From Streptomyces sp. NRRL S-118 (lineage in GTDB: Bacteria > Actinomycetota > Actinomycetes > Streptomycetales > Streptomycetaceae): DNA of 8,622 nt. The translations under genes were made by a program, and so were the position numbers. Shown here piece after piece: positions 1 through 8,622 of this stretch. Each line of letters begins with the position of its first letter. Position 1 is the stretch's first letter. The stretch is from positions 101,190 to 109,811 of the forward strand of contig NZ_KL591024.1 of assembly GCF_000716335.1 (NCBI RefSeq), read 5' to 3'. The notes under the pieces are model-generated. The model saw only the letters and a program-made list of their open reading frames with translations, had not been told where the DNA came from and did no database searches.

Positions 1-483
1 CGCCCGGGCCAGGATCACCGTCTGCTGTTGCTCACCCGCGCCGGCATCCCGAGCGGCGAACAGTTCCCGAGCCACCTCTCCCGGCAGATCCTGGGTGATC
101 CACCGCACCCGCGGATCGTCTGAGGAGCCTGTCGGAGCCGCGCACCCGAATCGCGCACGGGTATGGAAGACGAAGCCCTCCGCCTCAGCCTGGGCACGCC
201 GACGGGCCCGTACTCGGGGCTGCCACCGAGCCAGCACTGCTTCCTCGATCGCCAGACCCTTCGCCGGACCCGGGGGACGACGCGCTCCTGGCTTCTTCGT
301 CACCCACCGCTGCACGGTGCGCTGCGACACCCCCAGTACGGTGGCCACCTGCTGGGTGGAACCTCGGTGCGTCGTCAGCAGAAACCGCAGGCGGGCCTCG
401 GTGCTTGAGGGAACGGCCCGGGTGCGCAACGCGCGCTCCAGTCTTCTTGTGACCGTCCGGGGACGCGTTCGTACCGTGTCCAC
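1..483 (-). CDS. tpg: Telomere terminal protein, Tpg-like (3' end cut by window edge)
   Basis: Tpg is the protein covalently bound to the 5' ends of Streptomyces linear replicons; it primes fill-in of the 3' overhang after replication. Seen here: 161 codons open to the window edge. A helix-turn-helix lies at residues ~44-61 (core ATVLGVSQRTVQRW). Then come an Arg-rich stretch around residues 87-98 (RWQPRVRARRR) and the family-typical block at ~109-130 (RARFGCAAPTGSSDDPRVRW), then ELFAARDAGAGEQQ. From memory full Tpgs are ~185 residues, so ~20-25 are missing. The GTG start at 483 has AGGA nine bases upstream and puts LRFLL about 32 residues in, as in the family; the frame stays open further upstream. 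Thr114 is the reported nucleotide-accepting residue in characterised Tpgs; Thr108 and Thr118 are the local candidates here. No tap gene, the usual upstream partner, is present: the gene upstream is divergent and unrelated. Confidence 0.85.
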   Translation of the reverse strand, partial: MDTVRTRPRTVTRRLERALRTRAVPSSTEARLRFLLTTHRGSTQQVATVLGVSQRTVQRWVTKKPGARRPPGPAKGLAIEEAVLARWQPRVRARRRAQAEAEGFVFHTRARFGCAAPTGSSDDPRVRWITQDLPGEVARELFAARDAGAGEQQQTVILARA

Positions 484-559
484 CAGCGGGTTTCCTGCCG
501 CGTGCGCGTGTGCCGCCTTGTCCGGTGCGCGCCGAGCACTCTTCCCTTGGAGTCCCGCG
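484..559. promoter_or_regulatory. Divergent intergenic region between tpg and the 560-1943 gene
   Basis: This 76-base gap separates two divergent starts, GTG at 483 on the minus strand and ATG at 560 on the plus strand, so it should carry both promoters. Directly visible are ribosome-binding sites for each side: AGGA nine bases from the minus-strand GTG, and TTGGAG seven bases from the plus-strand ATG. I do not see a convincing -35/-10 pair for either gene. Confidence 0.45.
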
Positions 560-1408
560 ATGCTTTCATCGCTGCCCGTAGTCCAAGCGATCGATTTCCT
601 GTGTGAGCACACCTCCAGCAAGAGCCGTGTGATGGCCCTGCTGACTCACGACAACGGCCCCAGTTCCCTGACCGCTGTCCTGACCTGTAAGGACCCCGAC
701 CATGCCTGTGAAGCGGTGCGCATTTTGCGCCGAGTCCTGGCCCGACGCGATGCCACCACCGTCGACGACGAACTGAAGGCCCTCACGGCTGAGATGCCGG
801 ACGCACCGGCCGGCTCGCTGCGCCAGGCCGTCGTCCAGGCCGCGAGCGGCATCTGGCAGGCAGAACCTGGCACCTTGTTCGTGGTACCCGACCCGGATCC
901 GTCAGAGGACGAAGCAGTCTCCGACGTGGCGTCCGGACCGGTGGGGCACCCGCGGCTGAAGGACCTCCCGGGAAAGGTCGTGCGGATCGCGCACCTGCAC
1001 GAGTTCCACGTCACCGACGAGGACGCTCTCCTGCGCGCTGCTGTCGACCGCGGCTGGGAGCCGCTGCCTGCATCCGAACTCGGTGATGACGATCCACGCG
1101 ACCTGATCGGAGCCGTGATGACCCTCACCGAGGACCCGGATATCGCCGGAACCCAGACCCTGGAAGAGCAGAGCTCCGCGGAGCTTCTGCGCGCCGAAGA
1201 CGGGGATGAGCTGGCGGACTGGAGCGCGGCGCCGGTCGTCACCCGCTTCACTCACGGCTGGCGCCTGCGAGGCCAGCAGACCCGGCCCGCAGCCGAAGAA
1301 CAGACTCCTAACTTCGCAGCGCTCTTCGCCACCCGGGACTGTCCGTGCAAGGGCGAGGACGAGGAATGTCGAGGAGTGCGGATGGCAGCTCACGCCCCGT
1401 ACCGCTGA
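560..1408 (+). CDS. Hypothetical acidic protein, N-terminal part of a frameshifted gene
   Basis: The family is not one I can name. This frame gives 282 residues from an ATG preceded by TTGGAG at good spacing; codon third positions are strongly G/C, as in a real streptomycete gene. The open frame extends upstream to 95, but that part lies opposite tpg and has no reason to be translated. The N-terminal ~80 residues look helical (a CEAVRILRRVLARRD segment near 50-65). The middle is acidic, with an Asp/Glu-rich linker at ~108-120. Near the end is NFAALFATRDCPCKGEDEEC (residues ~251-270), which starts a Cys cluster. After residue ~270 the frame appears wrong: the last dozen residues are basic and unlike the rest, while the next frame continues smoothly (see 1371-1943). 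I therefore read this as the first two-thirds of one gene. Function unknown; linkage to tpg and the telomere is the only clue. Confidence 0.7.
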   Translation: MLSSLPVVQAIDFLCEHTSSKSRVMALLTHDNGPSSLTAVLTCKDPDHACEAVRILRRVLARRDATTVDDELKALTAEMPDAPAGSLRQAVVQAASGIWQAEPGTLFVVPDPDPSEDEAVSDVASGPVGHPRLKDLPGKVVRIAHLHEFHVTDEDALLRAAVDRGWEPLPASELGDDDPRDLIGAVMTLTEDPDIAGTQTLEEQSSAELLRAEDGDELADWSAAPVVTRFTHGWRLRGQQTRPAAEEQTPNFAALFATRDCPCKGEDEECRGVRMAAHAPYR

Positions 1409-1943
1409 CCTGCTCCACACGGCACTGGTCGTCCTCGCGGACCAGGCTTACGACGACGCGCAGCGTCTGGGGGACCAGTTCCTGTCAGACGCTGACTCCG
1501 CAACGTGGGAGGTCTTCGACCGACTGCCCCCGCTCACCTGGACAGCCGACCACCGTTGGCGACGGCGGATGGCGCGCGCCTTTGACGACCTGGCCGCCGA
1601 CCTCGCTAAGGGAAACTGGCCCAACCCCACCTGCACTGCGGAGGAGATGGCCCTGCACCTGGCCATCGAGGACGCACCGACCTACCTGGAAGACCGCCCC
1701 GCAGAGGACGACCACAACAGCCTCCCGGAACACGAGGACGATTACAGCTGGGACAGCTGCTCCGACCTGCTGTTCCAAGACCACGACGTCCTGATGCTCT
1801 TCCACTCCAAGTTCACCGGCATCGAGGACCCCGATCACCCCGCAAACCAGTTCATGGGCGTGGGCGACCTTCGGGAGGCCGCCTGGTTCGACCCGTTCGA
1901 CAACCGCAGCAACAGGGACCCTCGACGAGGCTTCCGACGGTAG
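1371..1943 (+). pseudogene. C-terminal part of the frameshifted 560-1943 gene, no start codon of its own
   Basis: About 190 codons in the +1 frame relative to 560-1408, beginning EECGWQLTPRTADLLHTAL and ending at TAG 1941-1943. The region looks fully coding, with high third-position GC. Features: an aromatic/basic stretch at HRWRRRMARAFDD, acidic C-terminal half, and a run of Trp/Asp-rich sequence (EDDYSWDSCSDLLFQDHDVL) before WFDPFDNR. There is no ATG/GTG with a ribosome-binding site near the point where coding character begins. The only in-frame upstream start is ATG 1206, deep inside the overlapping frame; the next ATG is internal at 1569. This argues against an independent gene. Skipping one base near 1370 joins both frames into ~460 residues and completes a C-x-C-x6-C-x2-C cluster. 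Programmed frameshifting or a sequencing error are alternatives to a true mutation. Function unknown. Confidence 0.65.
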
Positions 1944-1996: not shown

Positions 1997-2305
1997 CTAC
2001 CGTGCCCAGTCGATGCCGAGGCGGAGGAGGGCGGTGAGCCGTGCGGGGTCGAGTCGGTCGCGGCGGGCTTTTTGGTTGGCATACCAGATCCCGGTGCGGT
2101 GCTCGCTGCCTTCGGGCAGCCGCTCGACGACGGCCCGCCCCGGCATCTGGCCTTCCCGTTCGATGTACTGCTGAAGGGCCCGCAGGCCCTTCTGGAATGC
2201 CTCACCGCCCTTTCCCAGCCCGGTGGCTGTTGTCCCCTTCGCCGCCGCCTTGCGGGCCCGTGCGGGCTTTTCACGCCGAGTTCGCCGAGCCTCCGCTGTG
2301 ACCAT
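1997..2305 (-). CDS. Stand-alone helicase-associated (HA) domain protein, possible helicase remnant
   Basis: This 102-residue ORF starts with a Lys/Arg/Ala-rich ~33-residue tail. One HA domain follows: AFQKGLRALQQYIEREG, then GIWYANQKARRDRL, then LTALLRLGIDWAR at the C-terminus. It lines up with the last HA repeat of the terminal helicase in this window (AFQRGLAALTQWIEREG, LGVWITNTKTRRDKL, DALAKLGVDWA). The nucleotide sequence is also alike, for example GCCCAGTCGATGCC here against GCCCAGTCGACGCC there. HA domains occur as tandem C-terminal repeats on SF2 helicases and are thought to bind nucleic acid. The ATG at 2305 has no good ribosome-binding site, and a TGA lies about 17 codons upstream in frame, with nothing helicase-like before it. 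It may be a genuine small HA protein, or the surviving 3' end of a duplicated helicase gene. Confidence 0.55.
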   Translation of the reverse strand: MVTAEARRTRREKPARARKAAAKGTTATGLGKGGEAFQKGLRALQQYIEREGQMPGRAVVERLPEGSEHRTGIWYANQKARRDRLDPARLTALLRLGIDWAR

Positions 2306-2500: not shown

Positions 2501-4348
2501 TTACACGGGGCTGGTCTCGCGTGGGGGGAGGCCAGGGATCACACCATCGGTCAGATTGGTGCGGATCTCCCGAACAACTGGCCCCGGGGTGCCGCGGAGT
2601 TCGCGGCAGGCGATGATGACCTGACCTCCAGCACCCGAAGGATCTTCGAAGGTGGCGAGGTCGGTGAGGCCATCGAGGAGCGCGTTGGCGCTGCGCTGGT
2701 CCTCCGGGCCGTCACCCAGGCCGGTGAACGGGCCGTCCACGATCAGGAACTGGGGTACCGGCATCGCCGGCACCTCCCGGGCGGTATCGCGCAGCGCCAG
2801 CAGGACACTGACGTTCGCGCGGGTCATCGCGTGCCCGGCGACGACCCGGGAGTCGAACGACTTTCCGTTGATGGTGACGGAGAAATCTTCCGGGCTGATG
2901 GAGACCGTGTTGACCTCGGGGTCACACGCCTGCAGCCGGCGCAGCGCATGACGCGACCACCGGTCGGTCGCCTGCTTGACCATCAGATCGGTGTCCTGCC
3001 GGGCAGTGGTGTATGCGGCTTTCGCGATCTCCGCAGCCTTCTCCAGCTCAGGCAGCCGCTCGCGTAGTTCCGTCAGCTCCGCGACCTCACGCAGGTGCTC
3101 CGCGTTCTGCTCCAGCCGCGCGGCCAGCTCCCGTGCCGCCGCTTCGGCCTCCACCACGACCTGCTGCTGCGGCGCGATCACATCCTGCGTGAACGCCCGC
3201 ACCGCGGCCGTCGCCTCCACGACAACCCGGTCGGCGTCACCGACCCGTCCACGGGCCTCCTCCGCCGCCTGCACCGCACGTCGGGCCGCCTCACGGGCCT
3301 GCTCAGCGGCCTGCTGCGCCTGGGACATCCGCCGCGTGAACTCCTCGGCACGCTGACGGCGCTCAGGGTCGAAACGCCGGCACACTGGACAGTCGTCCTC
3401 CGACAGTCCCGTCAGATCCAGGGCCCTTACACACGTGGGGCACAGGCTCGGGTCGGTGGCTGCCTCCCGCAACCCAGCCAGACGTCCCCTTGCCTCAGCT
3501 GCGGCCGTATCCAGAAGCCGCGCCGTACGCTGACGGTCCTCGGCCGCCACGCCTGCGGCCCGCCGGGACTCCTGCGCCGCGGCCACCTTCTGCTCCAGCA
3601 CGACGAGCTGGTTTTGCAGCCGGCTGAGCTCCGCCCCGGCCTTCTGCGCCCTCAACGCCTCCTGCTGGTGCTGAGCGGTCCACTGCTCACCGCGGCGCTG
3701 CAGGTCCTCGACGGACGGCAGATCACGCTCCTGCCGCTCACGCAGAATCCGTTTGCTGCGGTTCTTCGCCGACCGCCACTCCTTCGTCCTGGCGTCGTCC
3801 TCTTGGCGCAGCGCGTCGACCTTCTCGTCATCGGCCCCCAGCAGCACACGTCCCACCGCCGTGCGCTCTTCCTTGCTCTGCCCGCCGAGGTAGACGTTCG
3901 GGAGGTCGCGCTGGCGCGCGTAGAACCATGGCACGAGCTTGTCCAGTGTCACGCGCGTACGTCCGGCGCCCAGCCGGGGGATCCCAAGCAGATCCTGGAA
4001 GACATCGGCCGCCGACCGCCGGGAGTCACTGCGCTTGACCGGATGACGCTCCGGGATACCCAACGTGCCGCGTGTGAAGACCACATCCTCCTGCCGGTCT
4101 TCCGTGCTGCGGATGACCTCCCACCGCTCCCCGCCGATCCGGGCGACGAACCCAACACGGCTGCACATCGATACGGCATCCATCACCTTGGCATGCTCCA
4201 CCCCCAGCACCCACCACACCGATTCCAGCGTTGTGCTCTTGCCCGACGAGGTCACTCCCGTCAGCGCGGGTAGGGGGGCATCGAGCCTCACCTCGTGCTT
4301 CACCCTGTCGACCTCGAACAAAAAGCACTCGATGCTGAGCGTGACCAC
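2501..4348 (-). CDS. Compact SMC/Rad50-like ATPase with Cys4 zinc finger
   Basis: 615 residues with the layout of an ABC/SMC-type DNA-linked ATPase. The N-terminus has a Walker A (GVTSSGKST, ~31-39). Coiled coil runs from about 175 to 300. It is interrupted by a Cys4 motif, CPTC at 303-306 and CPVC at 320-323, and resumes to about 460. In the C-terminal lobe, a degenerate signature-like helix (VVAGHAMTRANVSVLLAL, ~502-519) precedes a Walker B (QFLIVDGP, Asp538). An acidic catalytic residue is not evident after that Asp. At about half the length of Rad50 it belongs to the short SMC-like group; the size and the PVPQFLIVDGP region recall DUF3732-type proteins, but I am not certain. Start chosen: GTG 4348, six bases after GGGAGG. 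An earlier GTG at 4426 has only a poor site and would add 26 low-complexity residues. It is third in the helicase operon, 116 bases after the 156-residue gene. Role unknown; likely DNA-end or foreign-DNA related. Confidence 0.8.
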   Translation of the reverse strand: MVTLSIECFLFEVDRVKHEVRLDAPLPALTGVTSSGKSTTLESVWWVLGVEHAKVMDAVSMCSRVGFVARIGGERWEVIRSTEDRQEDVVFTRGTLGIPERHPVKRSDSRRSAADVFQDLLGIPRLGAGRTRVTLDKLVPWFYARQRDLPNVYLGGQSKEERTAVGRVLLGADDEKVDALRQEDDARTKEWRSAKNRSKRILRERQERDLPSVEDLQRRGEQWTAQHQQEALRAQKAGAELSRLQNQLVVLEQKVAAAQESRRAAGVAAEDRQRTARLLDTAAAEARGRLAGLREAATDPSLCPTCVRALDLTGLSEDDCPVCRRFDPERRQRAEEFTRRMSQAQQAAEQAREAARRAVQAAEEARGRVGDADRVVVEATAAVRAFTQDVIAPQQQVVVEAEAAARELAARLEQNAEHLREVAELTELRERLPELEKAAEIAKAAYTTARQDTDLMVKQATDRWSRHALRRLQACDPEVNTVSISPEDFSVTINGKSFDSRVVAGHAMTRANVSVLLALRDTAREVPAMPVPQFLIVDGPFTGLGDGPEDQRSANALLDGLTDLATFEDPSGAGGQVIIACRELRGTPGPVVREIRTNLTDGVIPGLPPRETSPV

Positions 4349-4464
4349 CCGGTACCTCCCGCGACTCGGCAGCGCTTCAGCGCTCGTAGCGGGTAACGAC
4401 ACGCGGCCGCCCGGGTGACGTGCCACCCCAGACCGGCGTCAGCTGCCCAGGCCGCGAAGCTCGC

Positions 4465-4935
4465 CTAGGGCCGCCTGCGGCGCTCCTCAGCCTCACGGGA
4501 GACCTTCTTGACAAGGTCCCAGAACGGACCCGCTTGGGCCGCGTCAGCAGCGGCCCCAGGCCAGGGCACGGCACCAACACCAAAGACCTGACTGATGCGA
4601 GCCTCCCAGCACTTCCGGCACTGGCAGTCCCCTGCCGTATGAGCCGGACAGACTCGGTCAGCCGTCTCATAGACCAGCGCAGCCAATGCCTCCGCCCGCT
4701 CCCTCCACCGCGCCGCGTTCGAACGAGCCTCTGACGCTTCCTGTTCGGCCCGCCGCCGCGCGCCGATCAGCGCCCAGTCAGGGCCTCCTCCGCCGTAGTA
4801 GCCCACCGCTTGCTCCAGCTCGTCTTGACACCATGTCCTTCCGACGACAACGCCCCCACCAGTAACAAGACACGCCGCATCACCCAGGAGGCCCTGGGAC
4901 GCGTTCTGCGCCAGCGGCCGGCCGCCGCCGTTCAC
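4465..4935 (-). CDS. Small Cys-rich protein coupled to the terminal helicase
   Basis: I do not recognise this 156-residue protein. The GTG start at 4935 overlaps the helicase stop in the tetranucleotide GTGA, the classic arrangement for translational coupling, so it is probably made in step with the helicase. The first ~30 residues are Gly-rich and poorly structured. Residues ~58-92 are a Glu/Arg/Ala-rich amphipathic helix, possibly coiled coil. Residues 96-109 carry a compact cluster, CPAHTAGDCQCRKC, i.e. C-x2-H, then C-x-C-x2-C, a plausible zinc site. A Trp/Phe-containing tail (GPFWDLVKKV) and a basic end (EERRRRP) follow. The open frame extends upstream to 5121, but that is a shadow of the helicase. 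The sandwiched position between helicase and SMC-like ATPase suggests an adaptor or DNA-contacting subunit; that is inference only. A later start, such as GTG near codon 44, cannot be excluded. Confidence 0.65.
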   Translation of the reverse strand: MNGGGRPLAQNASQGLLGDAACLVTGGGVVVGRTWCQDELEQAVGYYGGGGPDWALIGARRRAEQEASEARSNAARWRERAEALAALVYETADRVCPAHTAGDCQCRKCWEARISQVFGVGAVPWPGAAADAAQAGPFWDLVKKVSREAEERRRRP

Positions 4936-7607
4936 GCCCAGTCGACGCCCAGTTTCGCGAGTGCGTCCCGTTGTTCCTGGGTGAGTTTGTCGCGGCGGGT
5001 TTTGGTGTTGGTGATCCATACGCCCAGCTTGACGGTCACCGCCTCCGCCTCGCTGTCGACGGTGATCTCCTCGCTGTGGCCGCGGGGTACGGGCCGGTTC
5101 ACGCCTTCTCGCTCGATCCACTGTGTGAGGGCGGCCAGGCCTCGTTGGAATGCCTGCTGTGCCTTGCTCGGGCCCTTCGTCGCCCGCGTGGCCGCAGGGG
5201 CGGGAGACGGTGCCTCAAGCGGCTTGATGCCCAGCGTGGACAGCCGCTGCTGCTGCTCGGGCAGGAGGCCGGCCCAGGTGGCCGGCTGCTTCTGCTGCTG
5301 GAGCCATCGTCCGATGTCGTCGCCGTCGAAGGTGACGCCGGGTGCGATGTCGGGTAGGTGGCCGTCGGCGTCGACGAGGTCGGCGAGGACGCGGTAGTGG
5401 CGCTGCCAGTTGAGTGGCCATGGGCAGTTCCAGTCGGGGTCGATCGCGGCCAGCTGCTGCGCGCGTACGGTGGCCCGTTCCGGGTCCTTGCCCAGGCCGT
5501 TCTTCGCGCCCTTGCGGCGGAGGTTGGCCATGAGCTGCCCGATGGGCACCATCCCCTCGGCCTCGGCCTCGCCCCAGACGGCGTCCTGGCGGGGTGCGAG
5601 GTGGCCAGTGGCTCGCCGGTAGGAGCGGAGCGCGGCGAGCTTGTTCTCCCAGCCTTCCTCGCCGGGCTCCCAGACCATCCCGGCCTCGGGGGCGTCCAGC
5701 AAGGTCTTGCGCCGTTCCTCCAGCTCCCCGGCTCGCAGCGCCTTCCGCTGCTGGTGGACCCATCGCCCGAGCGGAAAAGCCTTCGTCGTGCCCACCTCGG
5801 TCTCGACATCGTAGGGAACGGCATACAGGCCGCTGATCTCGTTCTCCTTCCGCCAGCGGAGCAGGGCCTGGTAGCCCTCCAGCCACACCAGGGACTCCGG
5901 CCGGTAGACCCGGGTGCGTAGGAAGGCCGCGATGGTGGCGGCGTCGCGCGGGCTGGAGAAGTGCAGCAGGGCGGCTTCGGCGGCGGACTGTGTGTCGTCG
6001 TCCTCCTGCTCCTCGCCGTCGCCCGCGCCGCTGGTCCCGATGATCTGCCCGTCCTCGTCGCGCCGGATGTGGATCTTGCGCTTGCCGCTGCTGAGGGCGC
6101 GGGAGGCGAGCTGTTCGACCAGGCGCTCATCGTGGGAGCGCAGGCCCTGGAGCACGGCTACGAGGGGACGGAACGAGGCGCTGGCGACCATGTCGGTCGG
6201 GTCCTCGCCGGGCTGGAGAAAGACTGGCACGATGATCCTGGCGACCTTGGTGGAGCCGTCGCGGTGCAACCTGAGCGCGCGGCCGATGTTCTGGACGATC
6301 TCGACCTGGGAGCCGCGGGTGTCGGCGAAGCAGACGGCTTCGACTCCGCGCTCGCCGGTGATGTCGACGCCTTCGCCGAGCACGCGAACGCTGGCGAGGA
6401 AGGCCCGGTGCACGCGCCGGTTGTTCGCGTCGATGCCGCCTGCGAACTGGCGCAGCACCTCGCGTCGCTCGGAGACGAGGTGGTCGCCGCACAGCCACGC
6501 CGACCACACCCGGCCGGGGGGTACGTGGCGGCCGGACTCCAGCTCGTAGAACTCCGCGTCGATCGACGACGCGGGCAGCTCCTCCGCCCGCGCCAGGTCC
6601 TCATCGGAGGCGTCGTTCATGTACAGCTCGGCCGCTGTCTCGGGCAGCTTCTCCGCGAACGCCGCCGCTTCCTCGACCTTCTGGTGGAACGTCATGACCG
6701 TACGCAGGTTCCACTTCGCGGCGTGCTCCAGGAGCGCCGTCTGCAACAACGCCAGGCGCCGGCCGCGCCGGGCCTCCTCCGATTCCCCGAGGACGGGGGA
6801 GGGGTCGCGGATCTCCAGCACGTCGATCTCGAACCCGGCGAGGATGCCCCGCTCGATCGCCTCCGAGAGCCCGAGTTCTGCGATCCACGCGCCGTAGGTA
6901 CCCTCGGGGTCGTCGGCCATCGACGCGAGCATCATCTCCTGACCGTCCGCGCTCTTCTGAGGCCGGGGCGAGGCGAGGATGCGCGGGGTCGCGGTGAGGT
7001 AGAGCCGGAAGTCCGCGGGGATCCTCTGGTTGTCGTGCATCGCCGCCCACGGCCGACCAAGATCACCGGCGGTTCCGTGGGCCTCGTCCACGATGGCGAG
7101 GTCGAAGCCTGCCATCCGCTGGCCGTAGAGCCGTTCCCCGCCCGCCAGGGCGGCCTCCAGCGGCCCGCGAACCTTCCGTGGGCCCTCGGGTGCGTCGATG
7201 TCCTCCCGGGCCACCAGCGAGGCGTACGTGGCGAACACGACCACAGGCCCGGACCCGGCCCACAGGGCGAGCTGGATCGGGTTGGTAGTGGTGCGCACCC
7301 CCAGTTCGCTCAGCACCGGGTCGTTCTCCAGCGAGCACACCGCCGCCATCGGGGCCCGATGCCCCACCAAGCGCCACGCCTGAGCGGTCTGCACGAGCAG
7401 GTCCAGGGTCGGCACGGTCACAAGGATCCGCCCGTCCCGGAAGCATTCCAGCGCGCACGCGGCCGCCGTGATCGTCTTGCCCGACCCGGTCGCTGACACG
7501 ATCGTGCCCCGGGCACCCTGCGGGGGCACAGGTGATCTTGCAGGAAATCCCACCCACTTACGAAACGCCGACCGCTGATCTACCTGGTGTTCCTTGAGTG
7601 AAATCAC
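4932..7607 (-). CDS. ttrA: Telomere-proximal SF2 helicase with four HA repeats (TtrA-like)
   Basis: 891 residues. ATPase lobe: LKEHQVDQ near the N-terminus, Walker A ATGSGKT (39-45), DEAH box (VDEAH, 173-177), motif III TATP (205-208). Second RecA-like lobe: RVLGEGVDI (408-416) and the arginine-finger motif QNIGRALRLHRDG (439-451). These make it a complete superfamily 2 DEAH helicase. After an acidic linker (~528-540) come about four helicase-associated repeats, near 574-650, 652-732, 733-795 and 819-891, each with spaced Trp and basic residues. The GTG start at 7607 follows GAGG closely; no earlier good start is seen. It begins about 1 kb from the DNA end and is read inward, as for the terminal helicase genes of S. 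coelicolor and S. lividans (ttrA), which have been linked to conjugal transfer. The gene symbol rests on architecture and position, not on an alignment. It is the first gene of an operon with the 156-residue and SMC-like genes. Confidence 0.9.
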   Translation of the reverse strand: MISLKEHQVDQRSAFRKWVGFPARSPVPPQGARGTIVSATGSGKTITAAACALECFRDGRILVTVPTLDLLVQTAQAWRLVGHRAPMAAVCSLENDPVLSELGVRTTTNPIQLALWAGSGPVVVFATYASLVAREDIDAPEGPRKVRGPLEAALAGGERLYGQRMAGFDLAIVDEAHGTAGDLGRPWAAMHDNQRIPADFRLYLTATPRILASPRPQKSADGQEMMLASMADDPEGTYGAWIAELGLSEAIERGILAGFEIDVLEIRDPSPVLGESEEARRGRRLALLQTALLEHAAKWNLRTVMTFHQKVEEAAAFAEKLPETAAELYMNDASDEDLARAEELPASSIDAEFYELESGRHVPPGRVWSAWLCGDHLVSERREVLRQFAGGIDANNRRVHRAFLASVRVLGEGVDITGERGVEAVCFADTRGSQVEIVQNIGRALRLHRDGSTKVARIIVPVFLQPGEDPTDMVASASFRPLVAVLQGLRSHDERLVEQLASRALSSGKRKIHIRRDEDGQIIGTSGAGDGEEQEDDDTQSAAEAALLHFSSPRDAATIAAFLRTRVYRPESLVWLEGYQALLRWRKENEISGLYAVPYDVETEVGTTKAFPLGRWVHQQRKALRAGELEERRKTLLDAPEAGMVWEPGEEGWENKLAALRSYRRATGHLAPRQDAVWGEAEAEGMVPIGQLMANLRRKGAKNGLGKDPERATVRAQQLAAIDPDWNCPWPLNWQRHYRVLADLVDADGHLPDIAPGVTFDGDDIGRWLQQQKQPATWAGLLPEQQQRLSTLGIKPLEAPSPAPAATRATKGPSKAQQAFQRGLAALTQWIEREGVNRPVPRGHSEEITVDSEAEAVTVKLGVWITNTKTRRDKLTQEQRDALAKLGVDWA

Positions 7608-8470: not shown

Positions 8471-8495
8471 GCTCCGAGAGCGCAGCGAACGGAGC
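8471..8495. repeat. Telomere palindrome with inner CGC-A-GCG
   Basis: GCTCCG (8471-8476) pairs with CGGAGC (8490-8495). The loop holds GCGCAGCG, another GCA-centred mini-stem. Confidence 0.75.
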
Positions 8496-8497
8496 GT

Positions 8498-8524
8498 CAA
8501 CCCGCCCGCGGGGCGGGCAGGTTG
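8498..8524. repeat. Telomere palindrome with one mismatch
   Basis: CAACC (8498-8502) with GGTTG (8520-8524) and GCCCGC (8504-8509) with GCGGGC (8513-8518), separated by one C/A mismatch and closed by GGG. Confidence 0.8.
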
Positions 8525-8526
8525 AG

Positions 8527-8545
8527 TGGGACGCGCAGCGTCCCA
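8527..8545. repeat. Telomere palindrome, GCA loop
   Basis: TGGGACGC (8527-8534) and GCGTCCCA (8538-8545) form a perfect 8-bp stem over GCA. It corresponds to the GGGACGC palindrome of archetypal telomeres. Confidence 0.88.
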
Positions 8546-8548
8546 TTA

Positions 8549-8571
8549 GCGCTCCCGCGGAGCGGGAGCGC
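8549..8571. repeat. Telomere palindrome, GGA loop, 10-bp stem
   Basis: GCGCTCCCGC (8549-8558) and GCGGGAGCGC (8562-8571) pair perfectly over GGA. As I recall it, this element is essentially unchanged among archetypal Streptomyces telomeres. Confidence 0.9.
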
Positions 8572-8596
8572 AACCCCCGCGCGCAGCGCGGGGGTT
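8572..8596. repeat. Telomere palindrome, GCA loop, 11-bp stem
   Basis: AACCCCCGCGC (8572-8582) and GCGCGGGGGTT (8586-8596) pair perfectly over GCA. It is the longest stem in the array. Confidence 0.9.
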
Positions 8597-8602
8597 CGCT
8601 TG

Positions 8603-8621
8603 CACAGCGCGCAGCGCTGTG
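8603..8621. repeat. Telomere palindrome, outermost present
   Basis: CACAGCGC (8603-8610) and GCGCTGTG (8614-8621) pair perfectly over GCA, one base from the window end. By register it equals the second palindrome of the archetype. Confidence 0.9.
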
Positions 8622-8622
8622 G

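Follow-up and report, generated by a model that had tools for sequence, protein, structure and literature searches.

At the right end of contig C26 (109,811 bp) in the draft genome of Streptomyces sp. NRRL S-118, next to a telomere, lies a gene pair that we read as a divergent LmuB-type ATPase and its likely zinc-binding partner. The stretch analysed, called the window below, comprises 8,622 nucleotides and ends where the contig ends. The pair occupies a subterminal region that is also used by other, distantly related LmuB-type systems. We give about even chances to the reading that it is a likely sensor of DNA structures or DNA ends restricting competing plasmids or phages; on this view the Lamassu-like sensor pair is an accessory, forms part of the subterminal cargo and would probably serve defence between replicons. 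The helicase gene on its telomere side, which the original prediction had combined with both genes into one dedicated system, is a neighbour of the pair and stands outside the conserved unit. The features that carry the argument are these:

2501..4348, minus strand: LmuB/Rad50-like zinc-hook ATPase, 615 amino acids (profile, fold, alignment)
2729..2749, minus strand: Walker B motif FLIVDGP of the ATPase, catalytic glutamate replaced by glycine (alignment)
3380..3442, minus strand: double CxxC zinc hook (CPTC...CPVC) between two long coiled-coil helices (alignment, predicted fold)
4232..4258, minus strand: Walker A motif GVTSSGKST of the ATPase (alignment)
4465..4806, minus strand: small protein, 113 amino acids, with GGGPDW...RAE and H-x(4-6)-C-x-C-x2-C-W, a putative zinc site (alignment)
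4932..7607, minus strand: TtrA-type telomere helicase, 891 amino acids, ResIII/DEAD and four HA repeats (domain search)
8483..8622, no strand: archetypal Streptomyces telomere, five consecutive hairpins with 3-nucleotide loops (folding z = -9.4, terminal match)

The ATPase had been described as a compact SMC-like protein. This description holds, and profile and predicted fold refine it: the protein is specifically LmuB/Rad50-like, being related to LmuB over its full length and carrying a double CxxC zinc hook. The LmuB profile PDLC03863 from PADLOC matched residues 32-590 of the 641-residue open frame (2501-4426) with E = 1.9e-28, PDLC03859 and PDLC03862 matched as well, and the six best Foldseek matches of the predicted fold in the PDB were all Lamassu. 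A BLASTP comparison with a known ABC-3C ATPase was not significant (E = 0.044), and the assignment was decided by profile and fold. The conserved start is a GTG at 4348 behind GGGAGG, to which the gene boundary was corrected. Glycine occupies the position of the Walker B catalytic glutamate in 20 of 22 close rows and serine in the other two; none of 32 LmuB-type rows has the glutamate. With Rad50/SbcC the protein shares the ATPase head, the coiled coil and the zinc hook, but it differs in its length of 615 amino acids, its short coil and the missing catalytic glutamate. A Pfam search of the genes called over the surrounding 17.8 kb found no Mre11/SbcD. A phage origin was rejected, no match being found in phage records or viral contigs.

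With Lamassu/ABC-3C systems (LmuA-LmuC-LmuB; DdmABC) the window shares the LmuB profile match, fold, zinc hook and loss of the Walker B glutamate in the ATPase, a small gene just upstream and a subterminal site as in other Streptomyces Lamassu. It differs in having no recognised LmuA, in a small protein unrelated by profile to the two middle components and in the gene that precedes the pair, a telomere helicase of separate history. No LmuA profile matched any of the neighbouring genes that were scanned, either here or at the related loci that were tried, although remote or unknown effectors could escape profiles. The locus is accordingly classed as LmuB-like, with a Lamassu architecture that is incomplete, and not as a whole system. 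The earlier guess at an anti-plasmid or anti-phage role gains support from the LmuB-like character that profile and predicted fold suggest for the ATPase.

For the small gene, 4465-4806 replaces an open reading frame of 218 amino acids. The motif M-x-Y-x-GGGPDW forms the start in 11 of 12 aligned rows, while one row begins four residues earlier. These twelve close rows have in common the N-terminal GGGPDW/RAE motif and a cysteine cluster; with more distant members included, the invariant core is H-x(4-6)-C-x-C-x2-C-W, and conservation does not extend to the first cysteine of the window copy. This putative cysteine-histidine site agrees with the small metal-binding candidate of the original prediction, and judging from the sequence the protein is likely a zinc-binding partner of the ATPase. 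The gene sits where LmuC or another middle component would, yet the protein is unlike the two middle components tested. Searches against these two and the PDB gave no similarity, so that neither a known middle component nor a solved fold was recognised in it, and PADLOC returned only one stray Cas8b match, in one of twelve members; its structure model is weak. A profile search found 52 proteins, from Streptomyces wherever an organism was named among the matches listed. One of them, P0079, is named SBI_00002 of S. bingchenggensis and, going by this name only, is apparently the second gene of that chromosome. The small gene occurs in 4-5 of 392 Streptomyces genomes, and the five plasmid records in which it lies (NZ_CP108509.1/NZ_CP108510.1, NZ_CP032053.1, NZ_CP045849.1 and NZ_CP086231.1) all leave it without an annotated feature. 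The protein searches scored only about 8,000 best candidates, and the locus scans relied on two short patterns. On contig C1 of genome G259, short matches to the N-terminal motif (E = 1.3e-5) lie in opposite orientation at 4533-4598 (plus strand), 4.5 kb from the contig start, and at 7623232-7623297 (minus strand), near 7.62 Mb; the two sites are probably the two ends of one chromosome.

Close relatives of the ATPase were found in six plasmid records, four of them typed mobilizable. Counting the records of one plasmid once, they could be placed at seven loci: the window, TSRI0107, NBC_01237 (on two linear plasmids), S. clavuligerus pSCL2 (in three records), NBC_01335, S. celluloflavus and S. 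noursei, the last a remnant or degenerate copy. At five of the seven, the distance to the end of the replicon or contig is 12 kb or less. The small gene stands directly upstream of the ATPase at four loci and is missing at three. An association of the SMC-like gene with terminal helicases, whose absence would have refuted the original prediction, does recur, with an intact, inward, same-strand helicase upstream at four of the seven loci and a fragment at a fifth (S. celluloflavus). The helicase directly adjoins the pair at only two, however, and a fixed trio is not what the loci show: in pSCL2, 7 kb of other genes separate helicase and pair, and the NBC_01237 helicase belongs to a different subfamily (36% identity) with one gene in between.

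Silent-site divergence (dS) between the same genomes also points to separate histories of helicase and pair. Between window and TSRI0107, dS was 0.12 for the ATPase, 0.21 for the small gene and 0.46 for the helicase; between window and S. clavuligerus the values were 0.71, 1.71 and 0.45. Both members of the pair thus rank the two strains alike, whereas the helicase does not, even though the members still differ about twofold from each other. The conserved unit is small protein plus ATPase, not the trio. Pairing may reach across ATPases of about 30% identity in a different gene order, since genome G332 (two contigs) has a small-gene relative 1.9 kb downstream of an LmuB-like gene from the sister clade. 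No small-gene relatives were found around the sister-clade ATPases in G118, G006 and NBC_01766. In genome G196 a small-protein relative occurs where LmuB is absent; its neighbourhood includes a SEC-C protein, a DEAD helicase and a protein homologous to the window reading frame 560-1408.

The helicase itself was correctly recognised as an HA-repeat protein, with ResIII/DEAD and four HA repeats. It is found in 355 plasmid records (tblastn, E ≤ 1e-60), 344 of them named Streptomyces and 97 at 80-90% identity, as against six for the close ATPase, which together with the dS values speaks against a dedicated three-gene system. It lies within 5 kb of the record end in 58 of the 60 matches listed, and 42 of 150 Streptomyces genomes carry it (E ≤ 1e-150). 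A DEAD-box helicase near an archetypal telomere and transcribed inward fits the published description of TtrA, which is reported to be required for conjugation of the plasmid SLP2 (PMC8743542). The window protein shares the DEAD box with HA repeats, the distance of about 1 kb from an archetypal telomere and the inward direction, a likeness by description and not by alignment with SLP2 TtrA; most records of TtrA-type helicases, unlike the window, have no close SMC partner. By this analogy the helicase is probably a separate linear-replicon module for transfer or end handling, as published for TtrA. Its position could mimic an LmuA-like effector in a lmuA-lmuC-lmuB order, but this role was rejected: the helicase is found everywhere in the absence of the pair, and its history differs from that of the pair.

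That LmuB-type genes settle at replicon ends is not confined to this pair. Among ten helicase-bearing linear-plasmid ends, chosen by hand and not at random from 60 listed rows, four hold some other LmuB-type gene at most 2.5 kb from the helicase, namely PDC-M68/ABC-three-component units in NBC_01240 and S. venezuelae, an LmuB on the opposite strand in pSHJG1, and LmuB with LmuA in NBC_01717 (PADLOC was run on selected proteins only). The other six gave no LmuB-type gene in a tblastn search with 32 LmuB-type sequences that covered all ten ends. The PDC-M68/'ABC-three component system' unit beside the helicase (S. venezuelae NRRL B-65442 plasmid, NBC_01240, G010) resembles the window in region, helicase strand and LmuB-like ATPase; it differs in its own first gene matching PDC-M68A, an annotated middle component 6 and a far diverged ATPase (the BLASTP E = 0.044 given above). 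Of the 13 plasmid matches to PDC-M68B (12 Streptomyces records and one of Embleya), 10 are no more than 16 kb away from an end.

A single LmuB profile was positive in 41 of 150 Streptomyces genomes. In genomes of at most five contigs, 11 of 22 hits lie within 17 kb of a replicon end where 1.3 were expected, and on chromosomes alone 6 of 15 where 0.06 were expected; the 17-kb cut was set after the positions had been seen, and positions were transcribed by hand. The 11 end matches come from eight genomes, with near-identical ends in G019 (C2/C3) and G094 (C1/C2). As a control we used JetC of Wadjet JetABCD, like Lamassu an SMC-type anti-plasmid system that is common in Streptomyces (54 of 150 genomes) but of a different family and not at the extreme ends in this sample: only 1 of 28 lies within 17 kb of an end, and this one is a fragment. 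Genomes of more than five contigs were dropped (for JetC including G096, with six), split matches were merged, and for JetC the chromosome lengths were rounded for seven genomes and one was taken from the helicase-match end. The JetC profile PDLC00553 had no match in the genome of the window at E ≤ 1e-30. Helicase and LmuB lie within 5 kb of each other in 5 of the 13 genomes that have both, that of the window included, where 0.08 were expected. Of nine LmuB-bearing ends that were fetched, four have a helicase or part of one on the telomere side and five have none, which makes the association with the end wider than that with the helicase. On a tree of 32 hand-picked LmuB-type proteins, the label "end-located" must have been gained or lost five times or more on branches with good support; some of the long branches are unsure, and the label was also given to two rows for which a helicase beside them in a draft contig is all that is known. 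Weighing against such a slot, the pSHJG1 LmuB has 11 plasmid relatives of which just 4 come as close as 17 kb to an end.

Enrichment of Lamassu at ends is already in print, and we rejected it as a discovery of our own. A DefenseFinder survey of 2023 reports 31% of Lamassu in the first or last 1% of Streptomyces chromosomes, Lamassu near linear-plasmid ends too, and a suggested link of position to function (PMC10482375). The survey also has Wadjet enriched in the outer 10%; our control does not conflict with this, because it looks at no more than the outermost 17 kb. Nowhere in the survey's main text do the words helicase, ttrA or telomer appear. A search of the open-licence literature found no paper tying Lamassu to the telomere helicase, and neither the slot behind the helicase nor the effector-less LmuB clade was found in the open-licence papers searched.

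Lamassu/DdmABC is reported to sense hairpins or DNA ends (PMC10586767; PMC12904381). By extension, the ATPase of the window would dimerise through its zinc hook, and the ATP-bound, non-hydrolysing dimer would clamp DNA ends or hairpins. A signal may then pass to an unrecognised effector, either the small protein itself or one acting in trans, and the small zinc candidate would be a partner or the output of a reduced Lamassu-like sensor. Rival linear or circular replicons, or phages, would be the targets. The missing effector could also mean that the pair is what remains of a Lamassu that lost LmuA in a recombinogenic chromosome end, and the helicase remnants adjoining the slot, the degenerate copy in S. 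noursei and the three loci without the small gene fit such decay. We consider it unlikely, since full-length open frames persist at the window and five further loci and both genes look, from their codons, to be maintained by purifying selection (dN/dS 0.22-0.33 over 15 pairs for the ATPase; for the small gene 0.10-0.18 in five of six pairs, near silent-site saturation, and 0.58 in one). In addition, the sister-clade loci examined (G118, G006 and NBC_01766) likewise show no evident LmuA-type gene in an operon with the ATPase, and this suggests a lineage that is stable without an effector.

A machine of the telomere itself, in which the trio processes or protects the palindromic, protein-capped end or guides end-first transfer, seems quite unlikely to us, despite all three genes lying within 6.3 kb of the contig end in both window and TSRI0107. 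Its fold would suit the ATPase for this task, as Rad50 recognises protein-linked and hairpin ends (PMC10586767), and the apparent second-gene position of SBI_00002 points the same way. Against it stand hundreds of records with helicase and six with the close ATPase, the different divergence of helicase and pair between the same genomes, and the few genomes with the small gene, which is therefore not needed for ends in general. Very improbable is an accessory for linear-plasmid maintenance or transfer (partition, fertility control or a surface-exclusion-like function) that uses an SMC-type ATPase without immunity. The six plasmid records, four typed mobilizable, and the conjugation role of TtrA are in line with it, but the best-scoring solved folds are Lamassu and few linear plasmids carry the pair. 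The defence sensor, our preferred reading, has a bolder variant that we regard as distinctly doubtful: a telomere-adapted, effector-less Lamassu branch in which an LmuB-type clamp and an HCCC zinc mini-protein read hairpin or protein-capped ends, tell own from foreign and make the replicon end an immunity checkpoint.

As to the window end, the telomere proposed from the sequence was borne out by the five hairpins and by the terminal 300 bp, which match linear Streptomyces plasmids in 130 records; the match extends to 16 bp or less from the record end in 24 of the 25 matches listed. Alignment with these record ends places the telomere stretch about 16 bp or less from the true end. The three genes do run on the same strand and inward from about 1 kb off the telomere, with the helicase start 1,015 bp from the contig end. 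Just inside the helicase gene, small gene and ATPase begin about 4 kb from the end of the molecule; 125 bp separate helicase stop and small gene start, and 116 bp small gene stop and ATPase start. Two further features lie on the inner side:

1997..2305, minus strand: remnant of another helicase with its C-terminal HA domain, inward of the pair (domain search, locus comparison)
1-621, minus strand: gene for the telomere terminal protein Tpg, cut by the window edge and some 8 kb away from the end (NF047541, E = 6.5e-41)

Such C-terminal HA-repeat remnants adjoin the slot at several ends (besides the window, L007 7950-8731 and L081 4611-5645, both plus strand), as if cargo had entered between two tandem helicase genes or ends had been exchanged there. 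The reading frames 560-1408 and 1395-1943 (both plus strand) overlap in different frames. The former is 43% identical to the front of a 491-residue protein in G196 and the latter resembles, by eye, its rear part; in the window, a frame change that is either natural or due to sequencing seems to have broken the gene in two. In G196 the gene adjoins a ResIII/DEAD helicase, a SEC-C protein and the small-protein relative.

Other observations concern neighbouring cargo. After the ATPase, TSRI0107 has a gene (L003 6587-8959, plus strand) for a 790-residue protein with zinc-ribbon-like cysteines, without a Pfam or PADLOC match, and with an apparent GEAK motif, seen by eye, which we take to be a nuclease motif. 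With no family match and no counterpart in the window it was rejected as the effector of the window pair and is a candidate in that strain only. Between telomere helicase and pair, pSCL2 (L009 5017-9386) encodes a 1170-residue HamB/PDC-M23B-like DEAD helicase (E = 2.5e-59) with a 290-residue partner that belongs to no known family; these two form a further defence-like unit in the slot. Distant LmuB-like genes in G062 and G068 have a common downstream gene of about 260 amino acids (49% identical) that overlaps the end of the ATPase gene (L032 11768-12550, plus strand; L033 8248-9039, minus strand), possibly another unrecognised ABC-3C-like operon; the G068 ATPase match lies 146 kb from both chromosome ends.

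In conclusion, the end-cluster signal of the published survey (PMC10482375) can partly be narrowed to a slot of a few kilobases directly behind the telomere helicase. This slot holds distantly related LmuB types, among them an LmuB clade without recognised effector, paired with a small zinc-candidate gene. If a telomere-adapted branch did exist, it would explain the repeated settling of unrelated LmuB lineages beside telomere and helicase. Since Lamassu is reported to respond to DNA ends and palindromic hairpins, structures of the kind found in Streptomyces telomeres, the survey's question of whether position is tied to function is directly testable, with S. clavuligerus carrying pSCL2 and S. 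venezuelae NRRL B-65442 as tractable strains.
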